A stretch of DNA of 64,000 nt, taken from positions 868,001-932,000 of the forward strand of contig NZ_LT906463.1 in the NCBI RefSeq assembly GCF_900186995.1, read 5' to 3'. Positions 24,351 through 36,420 of the stretch are shown in pieces. The stretch is from Haemophilus pittmaniae (GTDB lineage Bacteria; Pseudomonadota; Gammaproteobacteria; Enterobacterales; Pasteurellaceae). Position numbers and translations under genes: made by a program. The notes beneath the pieces are model-generated. The model saw nothing but the letters and a program-made list of their open reading frames with translations, had not been told where the DNA came from and ran no database searches. Within the stretch, counting starts at the first letter, position 1. Each line of letters opens with the position of its first letter.

Positions 24351-24409
24351 ACGCCCCTTCAAAAATTTAAGTTTTTTGAAAAATAAAAGCTAAGTTATTG
24401 ATTTTATTA
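24349..24409 (-). repeat. Dispersed intergenic element, copy 5
   Basis: Starts AAACGCCCCTTC, overlapping the cpxA stop codon by 2 bases, and ends TTGATTTTATTAG. Reverse orientation. Confidence 0.9.
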
Positions 24410-24826
24410 GTGTTGATTTTAAAAATAATCGCTAATTCATTTTTTCTGAAAAAATACTGATTTGGTTATAAATTCATCATTTCTTATATTTTTTAGAGCT
24501 AAAATATAAGCCCTTCAATTGTTTTAATCTATTTATTTTCATTATTTATCGAATAAATCCTTATTTCATATAGGGATATTCTATCTAAAGTCCTTTCTGT
24601 TTTCTCTTAAATTAGGATTCAATATATTGTTTTTATTAATAAAAAATAAATTTTAACCATATATTAACAATGTGCGACATTATTCATTCTACATGGTTCA
24701 AAATAAAATGGTCTGACAAGCAGGGGTGTTGCAATGTGCTAGAGTCTTGATGTCCAAAGTTGTACAAACTTTGGAGTGTAATCCCGATTAGAGGATTTTT
24801 CTCATGGAAAAGCTGTGAGGCAAAAA
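24410..24826 (+). promoter_or_regulatory. Long AT-rich upstream region of the secreted-repeat-protein operon
   Basis: About 417 bp with no gene; 24410-24690 is markedly AT-rich and contains many T and A runs, as in silenced or bent regulatory DNA. No clear -35/-10 pair could be fixed. A four-codon ORF (ATG GAA AAG CTG TGA) starts at 24804 and its stop overlaps the ribosome binding site of the first gene. Confidence 0.5.
24754..24774. promoter_or_regulatory. 21-bp inverted repeat upstream of the operon
   Basis: CCAAAGTT-GTACA-AACTTTGG, a perfect 8-bp inverted repeat with a 5-base centre, 53 bp ahead of the first start codon. Probably an operator or a 5' UTR hairpin; the regulator is unknown. 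Confidence 0.55.
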
Positions 24827-25210
24827 ATGAAGAAACAAACTTTTTGTTTGCAAAAATCACTACTGCTTTCACTAGGAGTTTTGGCTATTTCGTTTAGCGC
24901 GATGGCCGGCTCACAAAGGGTTACTGTTAACGGGAATATTTATAATTCCTCTAGCGGTAGCGGTAAGGCAATGGTGAATATTGGTTCTACTGTCGGAAAA
25001 CGCATTGGTAATAATTCACAAAATGTTTCTGTAAGAGGTAACTTGGTGAATCGCGCCAGCGGTAGAGGCAGAGCCAGTATCAATATAGGTTCAGTGGTCA
25101 ATGACGGTGGGAGTTATGTCCAAGCCGTGAGCGTCGCTGGCTCTATAGTGAATGCCGCTTCGGGAGGTAAATCCGAGGTGAATATCGGTTCTATAGTAAG
25201 AGACTTTTAG
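24827..25210 (+). CDS. Small secreted repeat protein 1 (candidate fibre subunit)
   Basis: 127 residues from the ATG at 24827 (GTGAGG upstream). A signal peptide ends at about AMA-GSQ (residue 28). The mature protein is three tandem units of about 31-34 residues with the pattern Q-x-V-x-V-x-G-x-I/L-x-N-x3-SG-x-G-(K/R)-(A/S)-x2-N-I-G-S-x-V. It is rich in Gly, Ser, Asn and Val and has no cysteine in the mature part. Short alternating beta-forming units that stack are typical of amyloid-type subunits (curlin) or beta-solenoids; this is an inference from pattern. The gene heads an operon that contains a CsgG-like pore. I do not recognise a named family. Confidence 0.8.
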   Translation: MKKQTFCLQKSLLLSLGVLAISFSAMAGSQRVTVNGNIYNSSSGSGKAMVNIGSTVGKRIGNNSQNVSVRGNLVNRASGRGRASINIGSVVNDGGSYVQAVSVAGSIVNAASGGKSEVNIGSIVRDF

Positions 25211-25253
25211 TCTATTTAGTATAGGAATTCAGTGAAATAATCATTCATTTAAT

Positions 25254-25273
25254 GGGAATTTAAATTCCCTTTT
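25254..25273 (+). terminator. Palindromic hairpin between repeat-protein genes 1 and 2
   Basis: Perfect 16-bp palindrome GGGAATTTAAATTCCC followed by TTTT, 15 bases ahead of the next start. Can act as an attenuator or mRNA-stabilising hairpin. Confidence 0.55.
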
Positions 25274-25287
25274 AAAGAGGAAATACT

Positions 25288-25587
25288 ATGAAAAACTTGA
25301 TTAAAATCGGTTTAGCTGCAACTTTTGCTGCATCTCTTGCTTTATCAGCTAATGCAAAAATTGAAATCAGAGGAACCAATGATCAGTCAGTGAATGTTCA
25401 AGGTGCTGTAACTAATATTGCGGTTAGCAACAGTAAAGCCACTCAAAACTTAGCTTCCAACCATGGTAAAGTGACAATTAACGGTAACAATAAACAGCAT
25501 GTTGAGATTACTGGTGCAGTGACTAATATCGCAGTCAATGACAGTAAAGCTACTCAAAACTTAGGTTCAAATAGTAGTATTGAATAA
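25288..25587 (+). CDS. Small secreted repeat protein 2 (candidate fibre subunit)
   Basis: 99 residues. Signal peptide ends at about ANA-KIE (residue 23). Two near-identical units follow: QSVNVQGAVTNIAVSNSKA plus TQNLASN, and QHVEITGAVTNIAVNDSKA plus TQNLGSN, separated by HGKVTINGNNK. The unit shares the Q-x-V-x-(V/I)-x-G-x-(V/I)-x-N skeleton with protein 1 and ends in an N-L-(A/G)-S-N like protein 1's N-I-G-S. The Gln/Asn-rich, cysteine-free make-up recalls curlin repeats. AGAGG ribosome binding site. A strong terminator-like hairpin follows, so this gene and the previous one may be expressed above the rest. Confidence 0.8.
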   Translation: MKNLIKIGLAATFAASLALSANAKIEIRGTNDQSVNVQGAVTNIAVSNSKATQNLASNHGKVTINGNNKQHVEITGAVTNIAVNDSKATQNLGSNSSIE

Positions 25588-25597
25588 TATGTAATTA

Positions 25598-25635
25598 ATT
25601 GGTTATTGGAGAGATTCCAATAACCAATTTTTCTA
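25598..25635 (+). terminator. Strong intra-operon terminator after repeat-protein gene 2
   Basis: Perfect 12-bp stem ATTGGTTATTGG / CCAATAACCAAT, 7-base loop, followed by TTTTTCTATTTT. It ends about 38 bp before the next gene. Confidence 0.8.
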
Positions 25636-25672
25636 TTTTAGACCTGAGAACTCTTTTGAGGAGGGTTATCTG

Positions 25673-26044
25673 ATGAAAAGCTATCGATATCTTATCTTTT
25701 TCAGCATCTCGTTTTTTGCTGTTAGTTCTTTTGCCGGTAATAATGAAGAGTTGGTGCCACGTAAAGGCTTAGGACCGCTAGATCGAGCAAAGGTGAATAA
25801 TGTACAGGCTCAGAAGTGGGCGCGTATTGGTATGGGCATCGGTGAAGGGGACGAGCAGGCGGATGATACAAGAAATAATGCTAATTCGATGAGCAGTGGT
25901 TATGGTGGTATGCGTTCACGAAACTGTTCAACCAATGTCGGAACAATACAGAATCAAAAAGGTGCAAGCTCTGGACGTTACGGCCCTAGAGGCAAGGGAA
26001 ATATCGTTGTTGTGAAAGGCGATGTCATTAGCGTTTGTAAATAA
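25673..26044 (+). CDS. Small secreted protein of unknown function in the CsgG-like operon
   Basis: 123 residues with a signal peptide ending at about SFA-GNN (residue 22). The mature protein has a charged N-terminal part (LGPLDRAKVNNVQAQKWARIG), a Gly/Asn/Ser-rich middle (NSMSSGYGGMRSR) and a C-terminal segment with two cysteines that could form a disulfide (NCSTNVGTI and DVISVC, at about residues 84 and 122). I do not recognise a family. From its place just ahead of the pore gene it could be an adaptor, minor subunit or anchor comparable in role to CsgF or HfaA, but no sequence similarity is claimed. GAGGAGG ribosome binding site. Confidence 0.75.
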   Translation: MKSYRYLIFFSISFFAVSSFAGNNEELVPRKGLGPLDRAKVNNVQAQKWARIGMGIGEGDEQADDTRNNANSMSSGYGGMRSRNCSTNVGTIQNQKGASSGRYGPRGKGNIVVVKGDVISVCK

Positions 26045-26069
26045 TTAATAATAACAATTTGGATATATT

Positions 26070-27653
26070 ATGAAGTTGCGTAAGACTTTTATTTCATGTT
26101 TCTTAATCTCTAATTTAGTCGGTTGTTCATTGTCACCAACCAACTTAAAGGATGATCGACCATATATTGGTTCAACTACTACACATAATTCGCCGGCAGT
26201 AGAACCTGTGCGTGCAATGACCAGTTTTAGTGATAGTTTGAACTGTATGGATGACCTATTACGTCAAACTGGTTTGGGCGAAACAGTTGTTGCGGTTAAG
26301 ACTGTGAAAGATCCTTCCGGCAAGGCTGCTGCTGCGGCAAACGAGATGATAGTTACAGCACTCTCGCAAATGTCACGAACCAGCGGTGCATTTAAAGTTG
26401 TTGATTTTGAGGTTGATCCGTTGAAACAGGATACCGTACAAACATTGACTAACCTTCTACTACCTACCGGCTCTATGCAAATTCCTGCGCCACAACTTTA
26501 TATTTCCGGTGCCGTATCCTATGTTGATCAAAATGTCCTACGAAAATCCAATAGCGCCGGTGTGTCCTATGGCGAAGATGGTGAGTTGGGTGTTTCCAAT
26601 GATTTAATGACTACTGCTTTAGGCTTAGAGTTACATATCGGTGATTTCTTAACACGTACACTTTATCCAGGAATTGATTCGGCCAATGAAATTGTGGCGG
26701 CGGCTAAGGGACTTGGTGTGGATGCGGGAGCCCGAATTAGTAAAACAGGCGTGCAATTTTCCTTTGAGCGGAATTTATCCCAAGGGATAGGGGGAGCAAT
26801 TCGAACCTTGGTAGATCTAGGGACTATCGAGTTAGTCGGAAAGCTATCTAAGGTTCCTTATTGGCAATGTTTATCCCTCGATCAGGCGCATCCTGAATTC
26901 CAACGGGAGTTGCTCGATTGGTATGGTGGTATGGGAGAACGTGAAAAAATTAAGTTCTTCCAAACAGGGTTGAGAAATTTAGGTTATTACAACGGCTCTG
27001 CTAATGGTAAGAGTACGATTGAATTCCGTCAGGCATTATCAGCCTTCCAAAAGGATAATAATGCAACACCATCCGGCTTTATTAATTTTGAAAGCTATGA
27101 ACGCTTAATGAAAAATTATGTACGAGCTGATGCTAATGGTAATTTCAAAAAAGTAGGAATGACGGCCTCAAATACCAATGATAAAGAAAATGAACCACGT
27201 GAAGGATATCCTTACTTCTATTCGGATAAAGAATCACCGATTAACGTGGCTATTCGTTTGGATAAACCAACTTATAATCGTGGTGATAGCTTGCAATTGG
27301 ATATAGCGGTGGATAATGACTCAACCTATTTGGCCTGTTTCTACCAGGATACATCCAATACAATTAGCCAAATTTATCCAAATCCATTAGAGCCAGAACG
27401 TTTGGTTTCTAAAAATAATCCGCTAAAAATTCCTGACTCAGATGCCTTTAACTTAAGTTTAAGCAAGAAGGGGAAAGAATCGGTTATGTGTATGGCTTCT
27501 TACTATAGCGTGACAGATAAACTCAATAATAATTTGGGCGCGGCTTTCCAACCATTGAAAGTAAAAAATATGGAACAATTGGCAAACCAATTAAAATCTA
27601 TTTTTGGCGAGGATATAAAAGGTATACGAACTGTCAACTATCAAGTGAAGTAA
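26070..27653 (+). CDS. CsgG/HfaB-like outer-membrane lipoprotein with PG-binding and DUF4384-like domains
   Basis: 527 residues. Lipobox LVGCSLSP (cysteine near residue 19). Residues about 60-275 read as a CsgG-family domain: LGETVVAVKTVKDPSG, LYISGAVSYVDQN, a variable hairpin, LGLELHIGDFLTRTLYPG and ISKTGVQFSF, ending TIELVGKLSKVPYWQCL, comparable with the end of the CsgG pore domain. Residues about 288-350 fit a PG_binding_1 domain (FFQTGLRNLGYYNGSANG, FRQALSAFQKDN). Residues about 385-490 fit DUF4384 (NVAIRLDKPTYNRGDSLQLD, ISQIYPNP). CsgG forms a nonameric secretion pore; the added domains could dock to peptidoglycan. Domain calls are by eye. Confidence 0.8.
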   Translation: MKLRKTFISCFLISNLVGCSLSPTNLKDDRPYIGSTTTHNSPAVEPVRAMTSFSDSLNCMDDLLRQTGLGETVVAVKTVKDPSGKAAAAANEMIVTALSQMSRTSGAFKVVDFEVDPLKQDTVQTLTNLLLPTGSMQIPAPQLYISGAVSYVDQNVLRKSNSAGVSYGEDGELGVSNDLMTTALGLELHIGDFLTRTLYPGIDSANEIVAAAKGLGVDAGARISKTGVQFSFERNLSQGIGGAIRTLVDLGTIELVGKLSKVPYWQCLSLDQAHPEFQRELLDWYGGMGEREKIKFFQTGLRNLGYYNGSANGKSTIEFRQALSAFQKDNNATPSGFINFESYERLMKNYVRADANGNFKKVGMTASNTNDKENEPREGYPYFYSDKESPINVAIRLDKPTYNRGDSLQLDIAVDNDSTYLACFYQDTSNTISQIYPNPLEPERLVSKNNPLKIPDSDAFNLSLSKKGKESVMCMASYYSVTDKLNNNLGAAFQPLKVKNMEQLANQLKSIFGEDIKGIRTVNYQVK

Positions 27654-27671
27654 CACTGCGAGAGGATAAAC

Positions 27672-28721
27672 ATGTCGTGTAATTATGTAATGTTAAGAAA
27701 CTGTATCCCCGCAGTGTTAGCGGGGTTCATCAGCCTTACCACGCAAGCGGAAATTGTGATTAATCGTCCATTGGAGCTGCCACAAACCCCTAGTGAAGCA
27801 TTATCAACGCAGGATTCTGGCTACTCTTTGGTAATGGCTTATGACAGTTACCATAATAAACAGTATCAAGATGCTTACGAAGAATTTGAGTTTTTTGCGA
27901 AGAAACAAGATCCTAAAGCATTGATGGCAAATGCCTATTTGTTATTTAGTGGTTATATTTCTAAAGATTTCGCTAAAGCCTCGGAATACCTTACGAGGGT
28001 AGCTTCTTTAAAGTATGCTCGTGCGGTGTATTTGCAAGGATTACTTGAAGCCAATCGGAATTCTGGCCGATTGAATAAAAGTGCGGAGCGTTTTATTAAT
28101 CAGGCAGCTGTGATGGGGGATTATGTAGCGGCCAATGCATTGGCAAATTTTCATTTTCAACACGGAAATTACGCATTAGCTCAACGCTGGAATGAAAAAG
28201 CCGTTGAGTTAGGAAGTCCGGCAGCACGCCAGAATCAGCGAATTATATTGAATTCATCAAGAGAGGTGAGCACTCAACCAACGATTTCCAAAGAGGTTGT
28301 GAATTCCTCCAATACAGGCGTTATTGGTGAATTGCGTCAACGTTCATTGGCCGGTGAAGGTGGTGCTAGTTATGATTTAGCGGTACGGTATCATAAAGGG
28401 ATCGGTGTCGCGGTAAATTTCGGTGAAGCAATTCGGTTATATCAATTGGCGGCTAAGCAGGGAAGCAAAGAGGCGAAAAAAGTGTTACCGATTTTGCTTT
28501 CCCGGCGCTCACCAAGTGGTAATTTAAATAGTATGTGGATGCAGGAGATGTCTAATATGATGCCGAGCCCGGTGATCGTTCAAGAAGCTCCAACACACAA
28601 GATGACTGAGCATAATTTAGCTGAGCGTGCAGCAGAGCAAGAGAAAATATCTGCAAATATCCAACCATTACAGGAAGATGATCCCTTAGATGGTTTACTG
28701 CGTTTAGCTCCTAATCAATAA
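27672..28721 (+). CDS. Secreted Sel1-repeat protein of the CsgG-like operon
   Basis: 349 residues; signal peptide to about TQA-EIV (residue 26). Helical repeats follow: a TPR-like start (MAYDSYHNKQYQDAYEEFEFFAK), Sel1-type units near 85-195 and a clear Sel1 unit near 232-268 (ASYDLAVRYHKGIGVAVNFGEAIRLYQLAAKQGSKEA). The C-terminal 70 residues are low-complexity and Met/Glu/Gln-rich. Such periplasmic scaffolds often help assemble envelope complexes; here a chaperone or assembly role for the pore or subunits is inferred. GAGAGG ribosome binding site, 18 bp behind the pore gene. Confidence 0.8.
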   Translation: MSCNYVMLRNCIPAVLAGFISLTTQAEIVINRPLELPQTPSEALSTQDSGYSLVMAYDSYHNKQYQDAYEEFEFFAKKQDPKALMANAYLLFSGYISKDFAKASEYLTRVASLKYARAVYLQGLLEANRNSGRLNKSAERFINQAAVMGDYVAANALANFHFQHGNYALAQRWNEKAVELGSPAARQNQRIILNSSREVSTQPTISKEVVNSSNTGVIGELRQRSLAGEGGASYDLAVRYHKGIGVAVNFGEAIRLYQLAAKQGSKEAKKVLPILLSRRSPSGNLNSMWMQEMSNMMPSPVIVQEAPTHKMTEHNLAERAAEQEKISANIQPLQEDDPLDGLLRLAPNQ

Positions 28722-28751
28722 TTTATCAACAATAAATAAAGGAAGGTCTCA

Positions 28752-29285
28752 ATGAAACTCACTTATTCTAAATTGGCTATTGTGCTGTTTGGCTGTTCAG
28801 CATTATTTGCTCAAGCGGATAATAATCAATCAGTTTCCATTAAGGGGACGATAATTAATTCTTCTAGTGGTGGTGGCGAGTCCGTACAAACAATTGCAGG
28901 TAAAAAAAGTACCGTAGTGAATGGCACAATTATTACGCATAATGGAGAAACTATTGTTAATACCACTAATGAAGGTGGGGCGAGCACTGGCAACATTAAT
29001 GCAACATTAAATGGTAAGGATTTTTCTGGTCAAAATTTAGCAGGACAGAAATTTGTTAATTCAGATTTAGAAAATACGAATTTTAGTAATGCAAATTTGA
29101 GCGGTGCGAATTTTATTAATGCAAACTTGCAAAATGCTAATTTTTCTCAAGCAAATCTGCAAGGCGCCAATTTTACTAATGCGAATTTGGAAAATGCAGA
29201 TCTACGCGGTGCTAATTTGAAAGATGCAATTCGTGTGAATGCTAATTTAAATGGTGCAAAAACCCAAGGTACACTTTGGGAATAA
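28752..29285 (+). CDS. Secreted pentapeptide-repeat protein sharing the operon's subunit module
   Basis: 177 residues. Signal peptide ends at about AQA-DNN (residue 22); a Cys near residue 15 follows L-F-G and is a poor lipobox. Residues about 23-50 (NQSVSIKGTIINSSSGGGES) repeat the Q-x-V-x-G-x-I-x-N-x-SSG module of protein 1. Residues about 92-170 are some fifteen A(N/D)LxN/G pentapeptide units (FSNANLSGANFINANLQNAN), a right-handed beta-helix. The combination suggests a subunit module fused to a rigid beta-helix, for example a cap or minor tip component. That role is an inference. Last gene of the operon, followed by a terminator. Confidence 0.8.
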   Translation: MKLTYSKLAIVLFGCSALFAQADNNQSVSIKGTIINSSSGGGESVQTIAGKKSTVVNGTIITHNGETIVNTTNEGGASTGNINATLNGKDFSGQNLAGQKFVNSDLENTNFSNANLSGANFINANLQNANFSQANLQGANFTNANLENADLRGANLKDAIRVNANLNGAKTQGTLWE

Positions 29286-29298
29286 TGCTACTACTAAT

Positions 29299-29328
29299 AA
29301 AAAAACCGTCATGATTGACGGTTTTTTT
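29299..29328 (+). terminator. Terminator of the CsgG-like operon
   Basis: A-run, CCGTCA / TGACGG stem with loop TGAT, and seven Ts. Confidence 0.95.
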
Positions 29329-29363
29329 ATGGATGATAAATAGCGAATTTTATTAGAGAAATT

Positions 29364-29753
29364 CTATTCTCCTTTTAATCCAGCCAAAATTGGGCAGTCG
29401 GGAGAGCTATCTCCTTGGCAGCTATCATGCCAGGATTGTAATTCCTTAACCATTGCTTGTAATCGTTCGATTTGTTGATTTAGTGTTGCAATATGGGCTG
29501 CGGTAAGTGCTTTGACTTCACGACTGCAACGATGAGGATCATCCTGTAATCGTAGGAGCTGTTCAATTTGTTGTAAGGAAAAGCCAACATCCCGCGAATG
29601 TCGAATAAAGGCCAAGCGTCCTAAATCCATCTCTTCGTAATAACGATAACCCGCAGCAGTACGTTTGGCTGCACCGAGTAGTCCTAATTTCTCATAATCC
29701 CGAATTTGTTTAGTGGAAAGTCCAACAGCCTTTGCAGCTTGACTAATATTCAT
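29364..29753 (-). CDS. cueR: Cu(I)-responsive MerR-family regulator CueR
   Basis: 129 residues from the ATG at 29753 (MNISQAAKAVGLSTKQIRDYEKLGL); a GTG 9 bases upstream is also possible. N-terminal MerR winged helix (1-70), dimerisation coiled coil, and a C-terminal metal loop with two cysteines (HDSCQGDSSPDCPIL) spaced as in CueR, indicating a +1 metal ion sensor. Divergent from copZ-copA, and its presumed operator lies in the shared gap of under 90 bp. Confidence 0.9.
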   Translation of the reverse strand: MNISQAAKAVGLSTKQIRDYEKLGLLGAAKRTAAGYRYYEEMDLGRLAFIRHSRDVGFSLQQIEQLLRLQDDPHRCSREVKALTAAHIATLNQQIERLQAMVKELQSWHDSCQGDSSPDCPILAGLKGE

Positions 29754-29762
29754 AAAAAACAC

Positions 29763-29793
29763 TTGACCTTAACCTAATGTAAAGCTTTATAGT
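29763..29793 (+). promoter_or_regulatory. CueR-type promoter of copZ-copA
   Basis: TTGACC (29763-29768), a 19-bp spacer, and TATAGT (29788-29793). The 19-bp spacing is the hallmark of MerR-family activated promoters, which the regulator untwists. It starts 10 bp upstream of the cueR ATG. Confidence 0.85.
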
Positions 29794-29835
29794 AATGATG
29801 TTTCAAACAAAATCAACCCAATCTTAGGAGGTCCT

Positions 29836-30045
29836 ATGAAAACTATTACTTTAACTGTTGAAGGCATGACTTGTGGTGGTTGTGTCAAAAGTGTCACCCG
29901 TGTATTAGAAGAATTAAGCGGAGTATCGCAGGTAGAAGTGAGCCTGGAAAAGCATAATGCAGAAATTACTTTTGATGAATCACAAGTGAATGTTGCGCAA
30001 TTAATTGAAGCGATTGAGGAGGCTGGATTCGATGCCAACGAATAA
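29836..30045 (+). CDS. copZ: Copper chaperone CopZ (HMA domain)
   Basis: 69 residues, a single heavy-metal-associated domain with MTCGGC (CxxC) near residues 11-16 that binds Cu(I) and hands it to CopA. TAGGAGG ribosome binding site. Its last 14 bases overlap the start of copA, so the two are translationally coupled. Driven by the CueR-type promoter just upstream. Confidence 0.93.
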   Translation: MKTITLTVEGMTCGGCVKSVTRVLEELSGVSQVEVSLEKHNAEITFDESQVNVAQLIEAIEEAGFDANE

Positions 30046-32182
30046 AAAAATTGCTATTCAAATCGAGGGCATGACCTGTCAAACCTGTGCCAATCGAATT
30101 GAGAAAGTCCTCAATAAGAAGCCCTTTGTACAACAGGCTGGTGTTAATTTTGCCGCGGAGGAAGCTCTAGTGGAGTTTGACTCGTCGGCTGCATCCGAAC
30201 AAGACATCTTAACCATTATCCAAAAGGCCGGTTTTTCCGGTAAGGTTAAAACCGATGCCATCGAAGCGCCACAGAAAGTTGCAAAAGTGAGCCTCAGATT
30301 GTGGTTGCTATTGGCAATAAATCTGGTTTTTTTAGTCGGCATGGCAGGAATGTTGCTCGGTCGTCACGATTGGATGTTACCGCCGTTGTGGCAATTAGTA
30401 TTAGCGGGGATCGTCCAATTCGGTTTAGCTTGGCCATTTTATCGTAGTGCTATTGGCAGTTTGCGCGGTGGTATGGCTAATATGGATGTATTAGTCAGTA
30501 TTGGTACGCTGACAATCTACGGCTATTCGGCCTACATGCTATTTACCCGTGATGCGATGCATGTTTATTTTGAAGCATCGGTGATGGTGATTGGTTTTGT
30601 TAGTTTGGGCAAATTCTTGGAAGATCGAACCAAAAAACAAAGCCTAAATAGCTTGGGGTTATTGTTGCAACTGACACCGAATCAAGTGAATGTGCAACGC
30701 GATGGCCTGTGGCAGTTGCGATCCTTGGATAGCGTCGCGGTGGGCGATGTGTTGCGCGCTAATCATGGCGAACGTATTGCTGCCGATGGTGAAGTAATTC
30801 AGGGGAGTGGTTGGTGCGATGAAAGTCATTTAACCGGTGAGTCTCTCCCATTACAGAAAGTACCGGGGAGTCAGGTATTGGCCGGTGCATTGGTTAGTGA
30901 AGGTTCCCTTATTTATCGAGCGCATCAGTTAGGGCGTCAAACCCTACTCGGCGATATGATGCATGCATTGTCTGAAGCACAAGGGACGAAGGCGCCAATT
31001 GCCCGTTTTGCCGATAAGGTGGCCGGCGTTTTTGTACCGACAGTATTATTGCTTTCCTTTATCACTTTTTTACTGACACTATGGTTTGTACAGGATGTCA
31101 CTACGGCGGTTATCCATGCCGTGGCGGTATTAGTGATTGCCTGCCCGTGCGCCTTAGGGTTAGCTACTCCTGCCGCGATTATGGTGGGGATGGGGAAGGC
31201 GGTGAATGCTGGTATTTGGTTTAAGGATGCGGCATCCTTGGAAGAAAGTGCCCATGTAAATTGCGTTGTACTAGATAAAACCGGCACCTTAACCAAGGGC
31301 GAATTGACGGTCGCTGCAGTTTGGCAAGCACAGGACTATTCGCTAGATGCGGATACGCTTTATCGCTTGGCTGCCAGCGTTGAACAAACTGCTAATCACC
31401 CATTGGCGCGCGCTATTGTTCAGGCTGCGCAAGCGCGAGGGCTCACCTTAGCTTCTGCAGAAAATGTACAATCCTTGGCTGGCGAAGGTGTTGCTGCGGA
31501 TATTGCTGGGGTCGGACGGATAAAAGTCGGTAGTGCAGCTTTCTGTGGTTTAACGCTCCCAACAGATTTACCCTCAATTTGGTCGATTGCTAGTATTGTA
31601 GCGGTGGCCGTAAACGATCGACCAATCGGTGCATTTGCTTTGGCGGATAGTCTGAAAGAGGATAGCCGACAGGCGATCACGCGTTTGCAGCAGGCTAATA
31701 TTGAAGTGGTGGTGATGAGTGGTGATCAGCAGTCCGTGGTCGATCATATTGCTCAGCAATTAGGCATTAAGCAGGCTTTTGGACATTTGTCGCCGCGTGA
31801 TAAGGCCGCCCGTATTGCCGAGCTAAAAGCGCAAGGGAAGATTGTTGCGATGGTTGGTGACGGAATTAATGATGCTCCGGCCTTAGCGATGGCGAATGTT
31901 AGCTTTGCTATGAAAGGGGGAGCCGATGTTGCACAGCAAACGGCGTCAGCAACATTGATGCAGCATTCGGTAAATCAATTGGCGGATGCCTTGGTGATTG
32001 CCCGTGCGACCTTGAAAAATATTCGGCAAAATCTCTTTTTTGCATTGATTTACAATGTGTTAGGGATTCCGTTGGCCGCCTTAGGGTTTTTAACACCGGT
32101 ATTGGCCGGTGCGGCGATGGCAATGAGTTCGGTATCGGTGCTGATGAATGCCCTACGCTTAAAACGGGTAAAAATCCGCTAA
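30032..32182 (+). CDS. copA: Cu(I)-exporting P1B-type ATPase CopA
   Basis: 716 residues from the ATG at 30032, inside the copZ 3' end, with GAGGAGG upstream; an upstream in-frame start at 30005 is less likely. One N-terminal HMA domain (MTCQTC near 15-20), where E. coli CopA has two. P-type landmarks: TGES, CPC in the transport helix (VIACPCALG), phosphorylated DKTGT, NHPLAR, and GDGIND. The last two helices carry the P1B-1 copper signatures (N and Y in FALIYNVLGIP, and MSS in AMAMSSVSV). It pumps Cu(I) from the cytosol to the periplasm. Confidence 0.96.
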   Translation: MPTNKKIAIQIEGMTCQTCANRIEKVLNKKPFVQQAGVNFAAEEALVEFDSSAASEQDILTIIQKAGFSGKVKTDAIEAPQKVAKVSLRLWLLLAINLVFLVGMAGMLLGRHDWMLPPLWQLVLAGIVQFGLAWPFYRSAIGSLRGGMANMDVLVSIGTLTIYGYSAYMLFTRDAMHVYFEASVMVIGFVSLGKFLEDRTKKQSLNSLGLLLQLTPNQVNVQRDGLWQLRSLDSVAVGDVLRANHGERIAADGEVIQGSGWCDESHLTGESLPLQKVPGSQVLAGALVSEGSLIYRAHQLGRQTLLGDMMHALSEAQGTKAPIARFADKVAGVFVPTVLLLSFITFLLTLWFVQDVTTAVIHAVAVLVIACPCALGLATPAAIMVGMGKAVNAGIWFKDAASLEESAHVNCVVLDKTGTLTKGELTVAAVWQAQDYSLDADTLYRLAASVEQTANHPLARAIVQAAQARGLTLASAENVQSLAGEGVAADIAGVGRIKVGSAAFCGLTLPTDLPSIWSIASIVAVAVNDRPIGAFALADSLKEDSRQAITRLQQANIEVVVMSGDQQSVVDHIAQQLGIKQAFGHLSPRDKAARIAELKAQGKIVAMVGDGINDAPALAMANVSFAMKGGADVAQQTASATLMQHSVNQLADALVIARATLKNIRQNLFFALIYNVLGIPLAALGFLTPVLAGAAMAMSSVSVLMNALRLKRVKIR

Positions 32183-33543: not shown

Positions 33544-33569
33544 AAAAAGCACCGTTAGGTGCTTTTTTT
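33544..33569. terminator. Terminator between aqpZ and the glycosyltransferase gene
   Basis: AAAAAGCACC / GGTGCTTTTT with loop GTTA; A- and T-runs on both sides allow use from both strands. It overlaps the end of the minus-strand gene. Confidence 0.9.
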
Positions 33570-35099
33570 GTTGCTGACAAATCCTTCAAGAGCCTTAATT
33601 ACCTGCTCAATTACCTCCGGCCAATAAATTAACGGAGAGCTCTGACGGAATGCTTGTATCGATGGATACCATAGATTTTCTCGCTCTAATCCCCAGCGCC
33701 AGTCCATGACAAATGGCAGCAATAAGAAAGTGGGCACATTCATGGCGCCGGCCAAATGGGCCACTGAAGTATCTACGCTAATTAAGAGATCCAGATTTGC
33801 TAAAGCGGCTGCAGTATCACTAAAATCGCGGCAGTTCGGGCCGATGAGTGGCACACTATAACGCTCCATTAATGCTTGTTCAGCCTCATTCAACTCTTTT
33901 TGTAGGCAAAACCACTGATATTCGTTGTGCGATAATAAGGATTCGACTGGCGCCAAATGATGAATTGAGCGACAGTGATCGTTTTCATGGGTCGATGAGC
34001 CCCGCCATACCAAGCCGATTTTTAATCCTGTGTTGGCTTTGATACGTGGAGCCATGGTGGCGACACGAGCCGGATCGGCAAATAAATAGGGAATACGTTT
34101 TGGTAGTTCGGCAAACGGCTGTGAGACATGAGCTAGAATGCTATGCGGATAAACCCAATAATCGAACTCGATAGATTGCTCACGCCAACTCTCGGTATCG
34201 ATAATCTGATCAATATCCGGGTGCGAACGCATAATTTCTGCAATTGGCGGTTGCACAATAAAGGTTAACTGCGCCGGCTTTAAGGTTTTGAGGTAATGGG
34301 CCAGTTGGCTAAACATAATCTCATCACCGAGGCCGAACTCACTCCATACCACTAAATGTTTCCCCGCCAAGGGTTCTCCTTGCCAACATTTATGAAGTAG
34401 CTCAGCGGATGGCGGGATAGTGCTACGGATGGAATGACGCTCTCCCAGAAAGAATTCCCGTTGCCGGAATCCACGTGGGTAATCACCGATGTTTAGGCGT
34501 TGCAATAGGGTGAAATAATGCAGATTTGGTTGTGGGTTGCGGAAGAAGTAATGCAACCAGCTGTTGACAGCAGCTTCGGTTACCCCTTGCATATTATAAA
34601 TTTGAGCTCTTGTATAAGGCGCTAGCCGTTCTCGCGGATAACTTTGCTCTAACTGATTGAGGGCATTTTGTACCCGATAATCGGTAACCGGATAATTAAG
34701 TAATTGCGTGCTTAAATTTTGTTGTAATAGCTCTTGGGCGGCCAATGGCTTTTTGCGTAATAACCAAATATCCCGATTATCGGTGACTGGTTGATATTCA
34801 AAAATCATCTCCAAATTATCTGCCAACATTTGTGGATTACAGTCTTCAATCGCTTCTAATGCTAAATATCCCCCTGCGCTTAGGGCATCTCCCCAACACA
34901 ACAGATGTTCTGTATCGTAGGAAAGACCGCTATCGACAAAAATGATATCCATAGAACCGCTTTTGACTCGGGATAAACGATCCCGAGGTCCCATGGATTT
35001 ATCCCAATCCTTCAGTTCTAAGGAGGCTAGAAAATCAGCTGTAAAATGCTTCAGAAACGCCTCATCACAGAGTTTAAGTCCGGCTGTTGGGTTACTCAC
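33555..35099 (-). CDS. Family-9-like glycosyltransferase with degenerate N-terminal methyltransferase-like domain
   Basis: 514 residues from a GTG at 35099, chosen for the GGAGA site upstream and because longer starts only add residues encoded over srmB in another frame. The C-terminal half (about 270-510) resembles heptosyltransferase-type (GT9) proteins: WSEFGLGDEIMFSQLAHYL, KIGLVWRGSSTHENDHCRSI and DLLISVDTSVAHLAGAMNVPTF. The N-terminal 120 residues (SGSMDIIFVDSGLSYDTEHLLCWGDALSAGGYLALE) resemble the latter part of a SAM methyltransferase fold without a clear glycine motif. A helical, TPR-like linker is between. The gene starts 8 bp inside srmB. Likely glycan modification; acceptor unknown. 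Confidence 0.75.
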   Translation of the reverse strand: MSNPTAGLKLCDEAFLKHFTADFLASLELKDWDKSMGPRDRLSRVKSGSMDIIFVDSGLSYDTEHLLCWGDALSAGGYLALEAIEDCNPQMLADNLEMIFEYQPVTDNRDIWLLRKKPLAAQELLQQNLSTQLLNYPVTDYRVQNALNQLEQSYPRERLAPYTRAQIYNMQGVTEAAVNSWLHYFFRNPQPNLHYFTLLQRLNIGDYPRGFRQREFFLGERHSIRSTIPPSAELLHKCWQGEPLAGKHLVVWSEFGLGDEIMFSQLAHYLKTLKPAQLTFIVQPPIAEIMRSHPDIDQIIDTESWREQSIEFDYWVYPHSILAHVSQPFAELPKRIPYLFADPARVATMAPRIKANTGLKIGLVWRGSSTHENDHCRSIHHLAPVESLLSHNEYQWFCLQKELNEAEQALMERYSVPLIGPNCRDFSDTAAALANLDLLISVDTSVAHLAGAMNVPTFLLLPFVMDWRWGLERENLWYPSIQAFRQSSPLIYWPEVIEQVIKALEGFVSNKKST

Positions 35100-36420
35100 C
35101 GAGATTCTCCGCATTGCTTGGTTTACGACGTTTACCGATATTCTTACTGTCTTGATGACGAAGTTTGACTTTTTTCTTTTGTGCGTCTTTTTTCTGTTGC
35201 GCCTTCTTATCCTTAATCCGCGCTTTCTGTTTTTTCGAAACGGATTTGATTTCACCGTCTTTTGGTGCTTTGGTACGTGGTTCTAATCCTTCAATGACCC
35301 GCGCTTTTAGCGGCTCTTCGGTATAGCGTTTGATTTTACCAAGCAATTTATAATCGTGGGCTTCCACCAAAGAAATTGCATTGCCCTTTTTACCGGCACG
35401 CGCCGTACGGCCAATACGGTGAAGATAGGTATCGGCGCTATATGGCAGGTCAAAATTAATGACCCAGTCCACATCGGCAATATCAATACCGCGTGCGGCA
35501 ACATCGGTTGCTACGAGCACATTGACCACGCCATTTTTTAGTTTATCGATTGCATTATTACGCTGGGTTTGTGCCATTTCCCCTTCCAAGTAGGTGGAAC
35601 GGATACCGCGTTTGCGTAAGGTTTCTGATAATTCCCGTACCGCTTCGCGTCGACGGACGAAAACAATGCCACGAGACACCTGTTCATTGTCGATCAAACG
35701 GGCCAGCAGCTTGATTTTGTGTTCCAGATTATCGGCGTGATAGTACCATTGGTTGATTTTTTTACGTTCACGGCGGCTAGGCTCGGCATCAATTTTCACC
35801 GGATCATCTAATAAACGGGCAGCAAAGTCCTGTAATAGCTCGCCTTCTAAGGTGGCAGAAAAAAGCATGGTTTGCTTGCGCCAGCGGGTTTCTGCGGCAA
35901 TTTTTTCCGCATCTTGGCCAAATCCCATGGCCAACAAGCGATCTGCTTCATCCAAAATTAAAATTTCTACCGCCCGGCAGTCAAAGTTTTCTTCTGCGAT
36001 ATATTGCAGCAGTCGTCCCGGAGTGGCGACAACGATATCTTGGTTTTCATTGAAAATTTCACCGTGGTTTTGGTAAGCCACACCACCGGTAATAGTGGCG
36101 GTTTTTAAATTGGTGAATTGGCAGAGCTGCTCTGATTGCTCGGCAACCTGCATCGCTAATTCGCGTGTTGGGGTGAGTACCAGTACCCGTGGGGCACCCG
36201 GTTTACGGCGCGGATAGTCCAATAGATGTTGAATGGCCGGTAATAAAAATGCGGCGGTTTTGCCGGTACCGGTTGGTGCGCTTCCTAACAGATCGCGTCC
36301 TTCCAATGCGGTCGGAATGGCCTCATTTTGTACCGCGGTAGGGCGGCTATAGCCTTTTTTATCAATGGCTTTAAGGAGTTCCGGGGATAGCTCGAAGGCT
36401 GAAAATTGGCTGAGATTCAT
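35092..36420 (-). CDS. srmB: ATP-dependent RNA helicase SrmB
   Basis: 442 residues from the ATG at 36420 (MNLSQFSAFELSPELLKAI), agreeing with E. coli SrmB; longer frames upstream lack support. DEAD-box motifs in order: Q motif, APTGTGKTAAF, PTRELAMQ, DEAD (ILDEADRLL), SAT, ATDVAARGID, HRIGRTARAG. The last 60 residues are strongly basic, as is normal. It assists 50S ribosomal subunit assembly. Divergent from trmN6, as in other gammaproteobacteria. Confidence 0.96.
   Translation of the reverse strand: MNLSQFSAFELSPELLKAIDKKGYSRPTAVQNEAIPTALEGRDLLGSAPTGTGKTAAFLLPAIQHLLDYPRRKPGAPRVLVLTPTRELAMQVAEQSEQLCQFTNLKTATITGGVAYQNHGEIFNENQDIVVATPGRLLQYIAEENFDCRAVEILILDEADRLLAMGFGQDAEKIAAETRWRKQTMLFSATLEGELLQDFAARLLDDPVKIDAEPSRRERKKINQWYYHADNLEHKIKLLARLIDNEQVSRGIVFVRRREAVRELSETLRKRGIRSTYLEGEMAQTQRNNAIDKLKNGVVNVLVATDVAARGIDIADVDWVINFDLPYSADTYLHRIGRTARAGKKGNAISLVEAHDYKLLGKIKRYTEEPLKARVIEGLEPRTKAPKDGEIKSVSKKQKARIKDKKAQQKKDAQKKKVKLRHQDSKNIGKRRKPSNAENLGE

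Follow-up and report, generated by a model that had tools for sequence, protein, structure and literature searches.

A candidate CsgG-superfamily export-and-assembly operon with small secreted repeat proteins in Haemophilus pittmaniae and other Pasteurellaceae

We analysed a stretch of 64,000 nucleotides from Haemophilus pittmaniae (NZ_LT906463.1, positions 868,001 to 932,000; hereafter the window) and describe an operon of six genes, g1 to g6, that lie on the plus strand at positions 24827-29285 and are separated by short gaps. We propose that this operon probably represents an undescribed export-and-assembly system of the CsgG superfamily, which would build a beta-solenoid fibre or coat through a pore tied to the cell wall. 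An earlier note, made from the sequence alone, had suggested a fibre or surface-anchor system following the logic of curli and the holdfast anchor (Hfa). Our results support this reading, the role as a fibre being one that we infer. The coordinates and reading frames of the six genes were correct when rechecked. All six products start with a hydrophobic leader bearing basic residues, as read by eye, in agreement with the signal peptide or lipobox previously assigned to each.

The product of g4 (26070-27653, plus strand) is a lipoprotein of 527 amino acids. Pfam places a PG_binding_1 domain at residues 291-341 (E 4.3e-7) and a DUF4384 domain at residues 401-477 (E 3.3e-15). The Pfam CsgG model did not match g4 at E ≤ 1, and the CsgG fold of residues ~49-270 was instead matched by predicted structure, with fair support. 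This match included the membrane-bound form of CsgG (4uv3, 195 residues aligned), with PelC and FlgT among the next structural matches. The fusion of a CsgG-like domain to peptidoglycan (PG)-binding and DUF4384 domains, originally named by eye, is thus borne out by Pfam for the latter two and by structural comparison of the predicted fold for the first. Four long strands are predicted at residues 143-237, of which only residues 226-237 show clear alternating hydrophobicity. A sequence alignment of g4 with Escherichia coli CsgG was collinear and weak, while a search of the PDB with the g4 profile retrieved no CsgG sequence and mainly weak matches over the PG-binding part. Cys19 of the lipobox is conserved in at least 90% of the 41 homologues aligned (from 120 homologues among the matches listed). 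A single copy of g4 was found in the host genome (2.18 Mb, one contig).

Flanking the pore candidate are three small secreted proteins that had been described as sharing one short module. The gene g1 (24827-25210, plus strand) encodes a 127-residue protein with three imperfect repeats of ~34 residues, the proposed major subunit. Its paralogue g2 (25288-25587, plus strand) encodes a 99-residue protein with two repeats of ~37 residues (three in some relatives), also a proposed subunit. The 177-residue product of g6 (28752-29285, plus strand) combines one g1-like N-terminal module with pentapeptide repeats and may be a minor subunit or anchor. The similarity between g1 and g2 exceeded chance (none of 500 shuffles as good), and that between g1 and the g6 N-terminus was supported (2 of 500). 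The similarity between g2 and g6 was weak (15 of 500). Internal repeats were found in both g1 and g2 (none of 200 shuffles each), while the N-terminal part of g6 showed no clear internal repetition (15 of 200). Most of g6 consists of the pentapeptide-repeat domain (Pfam, E 2.7e-22), which the earlier note had not named.

The predicted structure of g1 is a layered beta-solenoid, a fold with fair support that agrees with the stacked beta-structure expected for the 127-residue protein. A Foldseek search with this model ranked the FapC fibril first (E 6.2e-4) and the CsgA fibril second. The geometric match to FapC was weak, and no sequence match was found to the FapC chain in the PDB. Proteins of the g1/g2 type are small, rich in glycine, serine and asparagine, carry leaders, and vary in both repeat number and gene number. 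A g1 homologue from H. pittmaniae (P0126) is 93% identical to g1, while g1-like proteins of Lysobacter (P0149) contain two repeats. Scattered matches to unrelated Pfam families among the 19 aligned repeat proteins (the best being DUF3918, E 1.2e-6, two members, and archaeal TrmB, E 2.8e-6, four members) were taken as chance matches of repetitive sequences. Separately, one distant locus (L054, 9744-10454, minus strand) encodes a 237-residue protein that resembles the subunits and is much longer than its Pasteurellaceae counterparts; by eye it has about six repeats, and its C-terminus contains cysteine.

The two remaining products are proposed adaptors. The product of g3 (25673-26044, plus strand) is a secreted protein of 123 residues with a conserved N-terminal segment and a C-terminal domain between two cysteines; it may act in assembly or as an adaptor. 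It had been noted as a small protein with two cysteines, and these are indeed invariant (C85 and C122), together with K40, G90 and G116, in 18 aligned members from Pasteurellaceae and the distant loci described below. The protein belongs to no known family: g3 had no Pfam match, none of the 120 listed of its 845 homologues (E ≤ 1e-3) carries a Pfam domain, and a Pfam scan of the aligned members gave just three matches (E 0.02-0.06), each in a single member. No relation to E. coli CsgF was detected. By eye the g3 C-terminus resembles one subunit repeat, a likeness that neither shuffles nor profile comparison supported. The gene g5 (27672-28721, plus strand) encodes a secreted protein of 349 residues that is Sel1/TPR-like and may be a periplasmic adaptor. 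Its earlier description as a Sel1-repeat protein stands as a likeness, the Pfam score of 30.3 bits falling just under the cut-off of 30.7.

The same gene set was found in other Pasteurellaceae. Homologues of g4 are present in 12 of 140 genomes of the family, its own included, and in five of 43 genera. Among these 12 operons, g2, g3, g5 and g6 are each present in all, and g1 in 11; it is missing from one because the contig begins within g2. The carriers appear to be mostly Haemophilus parainfluenzae, Rodentibacter, Aggregatibacter, Actinobacillus sp. GY-402 and Cricetibacter.

A hairpin of 15 pairs by scan, followed by a T-rich stretch, separates the subunit genes from the machinery genes (25597-25629, plus strand). 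It may be a leaky terminator or a stabiliser of the 3' end. A strong hairpin occurs between g2 and g3 in all 11 Pasteurellaceae operons tested, with a sequence that differs between lineages; the twelfth operon, L078, was left out because its contig starts within g2. The hairpin reached z ≤ -3 in 10 of the 11 (-1.0 in L070), against three of 11 for the gap between g1 and g2. By eye, the window and four near relatives have a U run after the stem, a feature hardly present in the others. This arrangement would fit production of the subunits in excess over the machinery. A second hairpin with a T run lies 3' of g6 (29297-29330, plus strand); it is strong on folding and probably terminates the operon, and it was not among the consensus-scan matches. 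Neither promoter-like sites (13 versus 15.8 in shuffles) nor terminator-like sites (4 versus 4.5) exceeded chance in that scan; support for the g2-g3 hairpin comes from the comparison between species. The region 5' of g1 is not conserved across the 11 operons, and we therefore claim no leader RNA. All matches in an Rfam scan of the region fell under the gathering scores.

Relatives of g4 also occur beyond the family. Of the 398 Pseudomonadota genomes sampled, 19 had such relatives at E ≤ 1e-20, as did three of 274 genomes of the class, the window's own genome being in both counts. We compared 18 distant loci, 16 from the Pseudomonadota sample (18 non-own genomes matched, of which G413 and G512 were left out) and two from the class sample. 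Profile searches found repeat proteins in 14 of these loci, at E 1.4e-5 or lower, and g3-like proteins in 13, at E 2e-8 or lower. The profiles were partly built from the distant loci themselves; five of the repeat-protein loci and four of the g3 loci were found without having contributed rows, one of them (L059) being a close relative of a contributing locus. The best E-values for reversed sequences were 0.91 and 0.97. The profiles found no repeat protein in L062, L063, L064 and L068. The usual gene order is repeat proteins, then g3, then g4. A Sel1 gene follows the g4 relative in L051, which is apparently from Acidovorax sp. Leaf160, while L055, L056, L059 and L060 appear to be from Magnetococcales.

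OmpA-family proteins lie 3' of the g4 relative in L056, L058 and L066, and on the opposite strand in L061. As a side observation, L055, L056, L058, L059 and L060 share an added protein with an OmpA-family domain 3' of g4 (by Pfam in L056 and L058, by eye elsewhere), and a small secreted protein with a common CWQ motif, the L056 copy of which has no Pfam match. Caspase-domain (Peptidase_C14) genes were seen a few kilobases from the g4 relatives of L064 (11075-11818), L065 (10520-11779) and L066 (6071-7801), and that of L066 also carries a DUF4384 domain. Two large Azospirillum plasmids (NZ_CP029832.1 and NC_016587.1) encode distant g4 relatives with ~31% identity.

The operon does not occupy a common site. 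By comparison of the flanks, two operons being represented by one flank only, the 12 operons fall into five groups, with the window alone in its own. The downstream flanks of two groups are weakly cross-linked (71-72 identical residues). In the window, cpxR- and cpxA-type genes lie upstream (best NCBIfam matches; CpxA above the cut-off, CpxR just under). Downstream are a MerR-type regulator (Pfam) and then a small heavy-metal-type protein and a copper-type P-ATPase, both named by eye. The operon sits between cpxA and a copper locus that is inverted (24351-24826 and 29364-32182). In all ten remaining genomes from this genus, cpxA and copA are immediate neighbours in convergent orientation, and three of these ten carry the operon elsewhere. 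The simplest reading would be that the window's lineage gained the operon at this position along with the inverted copper locus.

We suggest the following model. All six products would be exported by Sec, and g4, as an outer-membrane lipoprotein, would form a CsgG-like ring with a beta-barrel pore. Its PG-binding and DUF4384 domains, absent from CsgG, may tie this pore to the cell wall. The g1 and g2 products would cross the pore unfolded, after which their repeats would stack on one another to give a functional-amyloid type of fibre or coat with a beta-solenoid structure. With its subunit-like module and pentapeptide beta-helix, g6 could serve as a minor subunit, cap or anchor, while g3 and g5 might act as adaptor or assembly proteins, filling the roles that CsgF and CsgE have in curli. 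With the hairpin between g2 and g3, subunits could be produced in excess over machinery.

This model resembles curli in combining a lipoprotein of predicted CsgG fold with small secreted repeat subunits, g1 being a predicted stacked solenoid. As the earlier note had found by eye, no homologue of the curli subunits or of CsgE and CsgF is recognisable: the curlin (PF07012), CsgE and CsgF models had no match in the genome at E ≤ 1. Every control search was positive in E. coli, the CsgE and CsgF controls each exceeding the cut-off in one control genome. In contrast to curli, the pore protein bears PG-binding and DUF4384 domains, and the operon includes additional Sel1, two-cysteine and pentapeptide proteins. 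The g1 and g2 repeats are 34-37 residues long, compared with the ~23 given for curlin in the accessible text of PMC10192328. The curlin regular expression from the same text matched nowhere in g1, g2, g3 and g6, as opposed to seven times in CsgA and ten times in CsgB, with single matches in two of the 19 aligned repeat proteins.

The Fap system differs in its secretion route, which uses the FapF transporter, whereas a CsgG-type pore is proposed here. FapF and FapD families were absent from the Pfam and NCBIfam matches of the six genes searched, in libraries unconfirmed to hold them. A possible likeness to Fap lies in the subunits: the FapC fibril is the best structural match of the g1 model, and the presence of three imperfect repeats in a subunit, each forming one layer, recalls FapC as described in the accessible part of PMC12392863.

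Related pores are known from other settings. In the portions available, one paper reports that CsgG models also match likely paralogues outside curli (PMC3521004), and another describes an Acinetobacter baumannii CsgG-like protein co-expressed with two lipoproteins, a different arrangement (PMC3224125). NanoporeDB lists CsgG-like pores widely; the terms 'DUF4384', 'peptidoglycan' and 'Haemophilus' are missing from the main text as available (PMC13397529). A fibre system of this type had seemed unfamiliar in Pasteurellaceae, and the listed matches from the literature on CsgG-like and DUF4384 proteins, a search with most subscription papers and all preprints outside its scope, include no account of it.

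Three other explanations were considered, which we rank from a holdfast-type anchor through an envelope-internal structure to secreted effectors. As an anchor, g4 would export the g1, g2 and g6 products into a short outer-membrane patch that ties polysaccharide or capsule, with no free fibre. Such a complex has a precedent in HfaABD, which pairs a CsgG-type protein with dependent surface proteins; according to the available text, HfaB is similar to CsgG, the CsgA-like HfaA requires it to reach the surface, and it anchors polysaccharide (PMC6707917). The PG-binding domain of g4 suits an anchor, and the NCBIfam HfaB model weakly matches g4 residues 47-102 (E 3.1e-4); however, this match scores 20 bits, far below the cut-off of 300. 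To our knowledge, domain fusions of the g4 type and the accessory genes are not part of the HfaABD system. No HfaA or HfaD model was listed among the NCBIfam matches of g1-g6 at E ≤ 1, the presence of these models in the library being unconfirmed. By eye, no polysaccharide export genes lie beside the operon, a glycosyltransferase-like open reading frame (33555-35255) being located on the far side of the copper genes. The operons also occupy differing genomic sites. We consider an anchor of this kind unlikely.

A periplasmic ring, as formed by PelC and FlgT, is a less probable role for g4. The solenoid proteins would then lie between peptidoglycan and outer membrane and stiffen or sense the envelope. 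The rank of PelC and FlgT in the structural search is consistent with this, the PG-binding domain points to the wall, as do the OmpA-family proteins that neighbour g4 in four of the distant loci, and the operon adjoins cpxRA-type genes in the window. However, that neighbourhood is not common to the other operons, the g4 match spans the membrane-bound form of CsgG, and four long strands are predicted in g4. Finally, the small repeat proteins could be secreted effectors, such as surface-aggregating antibacterial peptides, instead of structural subunits. Their size, composition, leaders and variable number would be compatible with effectors, but no immunity-like gene was recognised by eye, and their co-conservation with a pore and cell-wall-binding domains, as well as the layered solenoid prediction, argue against it. 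We regard this as very improbable.

Bacterial amyloid is exported and assembled by two paradigm routes, curli and Fap, and a 2025 survey that searched for both systems found one or both in ~4.2% of GTDB species (PMC12822426, in the text available). We hold it possible, with slightly more doubt than belief, that the operon represents a third major class of Gram-negative functional-amyloid or solenoid fibre, ranging from Pasteurellaceae of the human mouth to Lysobacter, Magnetococcales and Acidovorax-type bacteria. This class would have its own repeat of ~34-37 residues with three strands per layer, a CsgG-type pore bolted to peptidoglycan and its own assembly protein with two cysteines, and may have been overlooked because published surveys begin from curlin or Fap repeats. 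If our favoured model of a CsgG-superfamily fibre or coat is true, it would extend the range of natural secreted solenoids and pores by a system whose subunits are unrelated, and would raise the question of how a CsgG-type pore operates when CsgE and CsgF are both missing. A pore bound to the wall would interest nanopore engineers as well. For the family itself, the system would offer a candidate matrix component for oral species, Haemophilus parainfluenzae and Aggregatibacter among them, for which the literature matches listed describe none.
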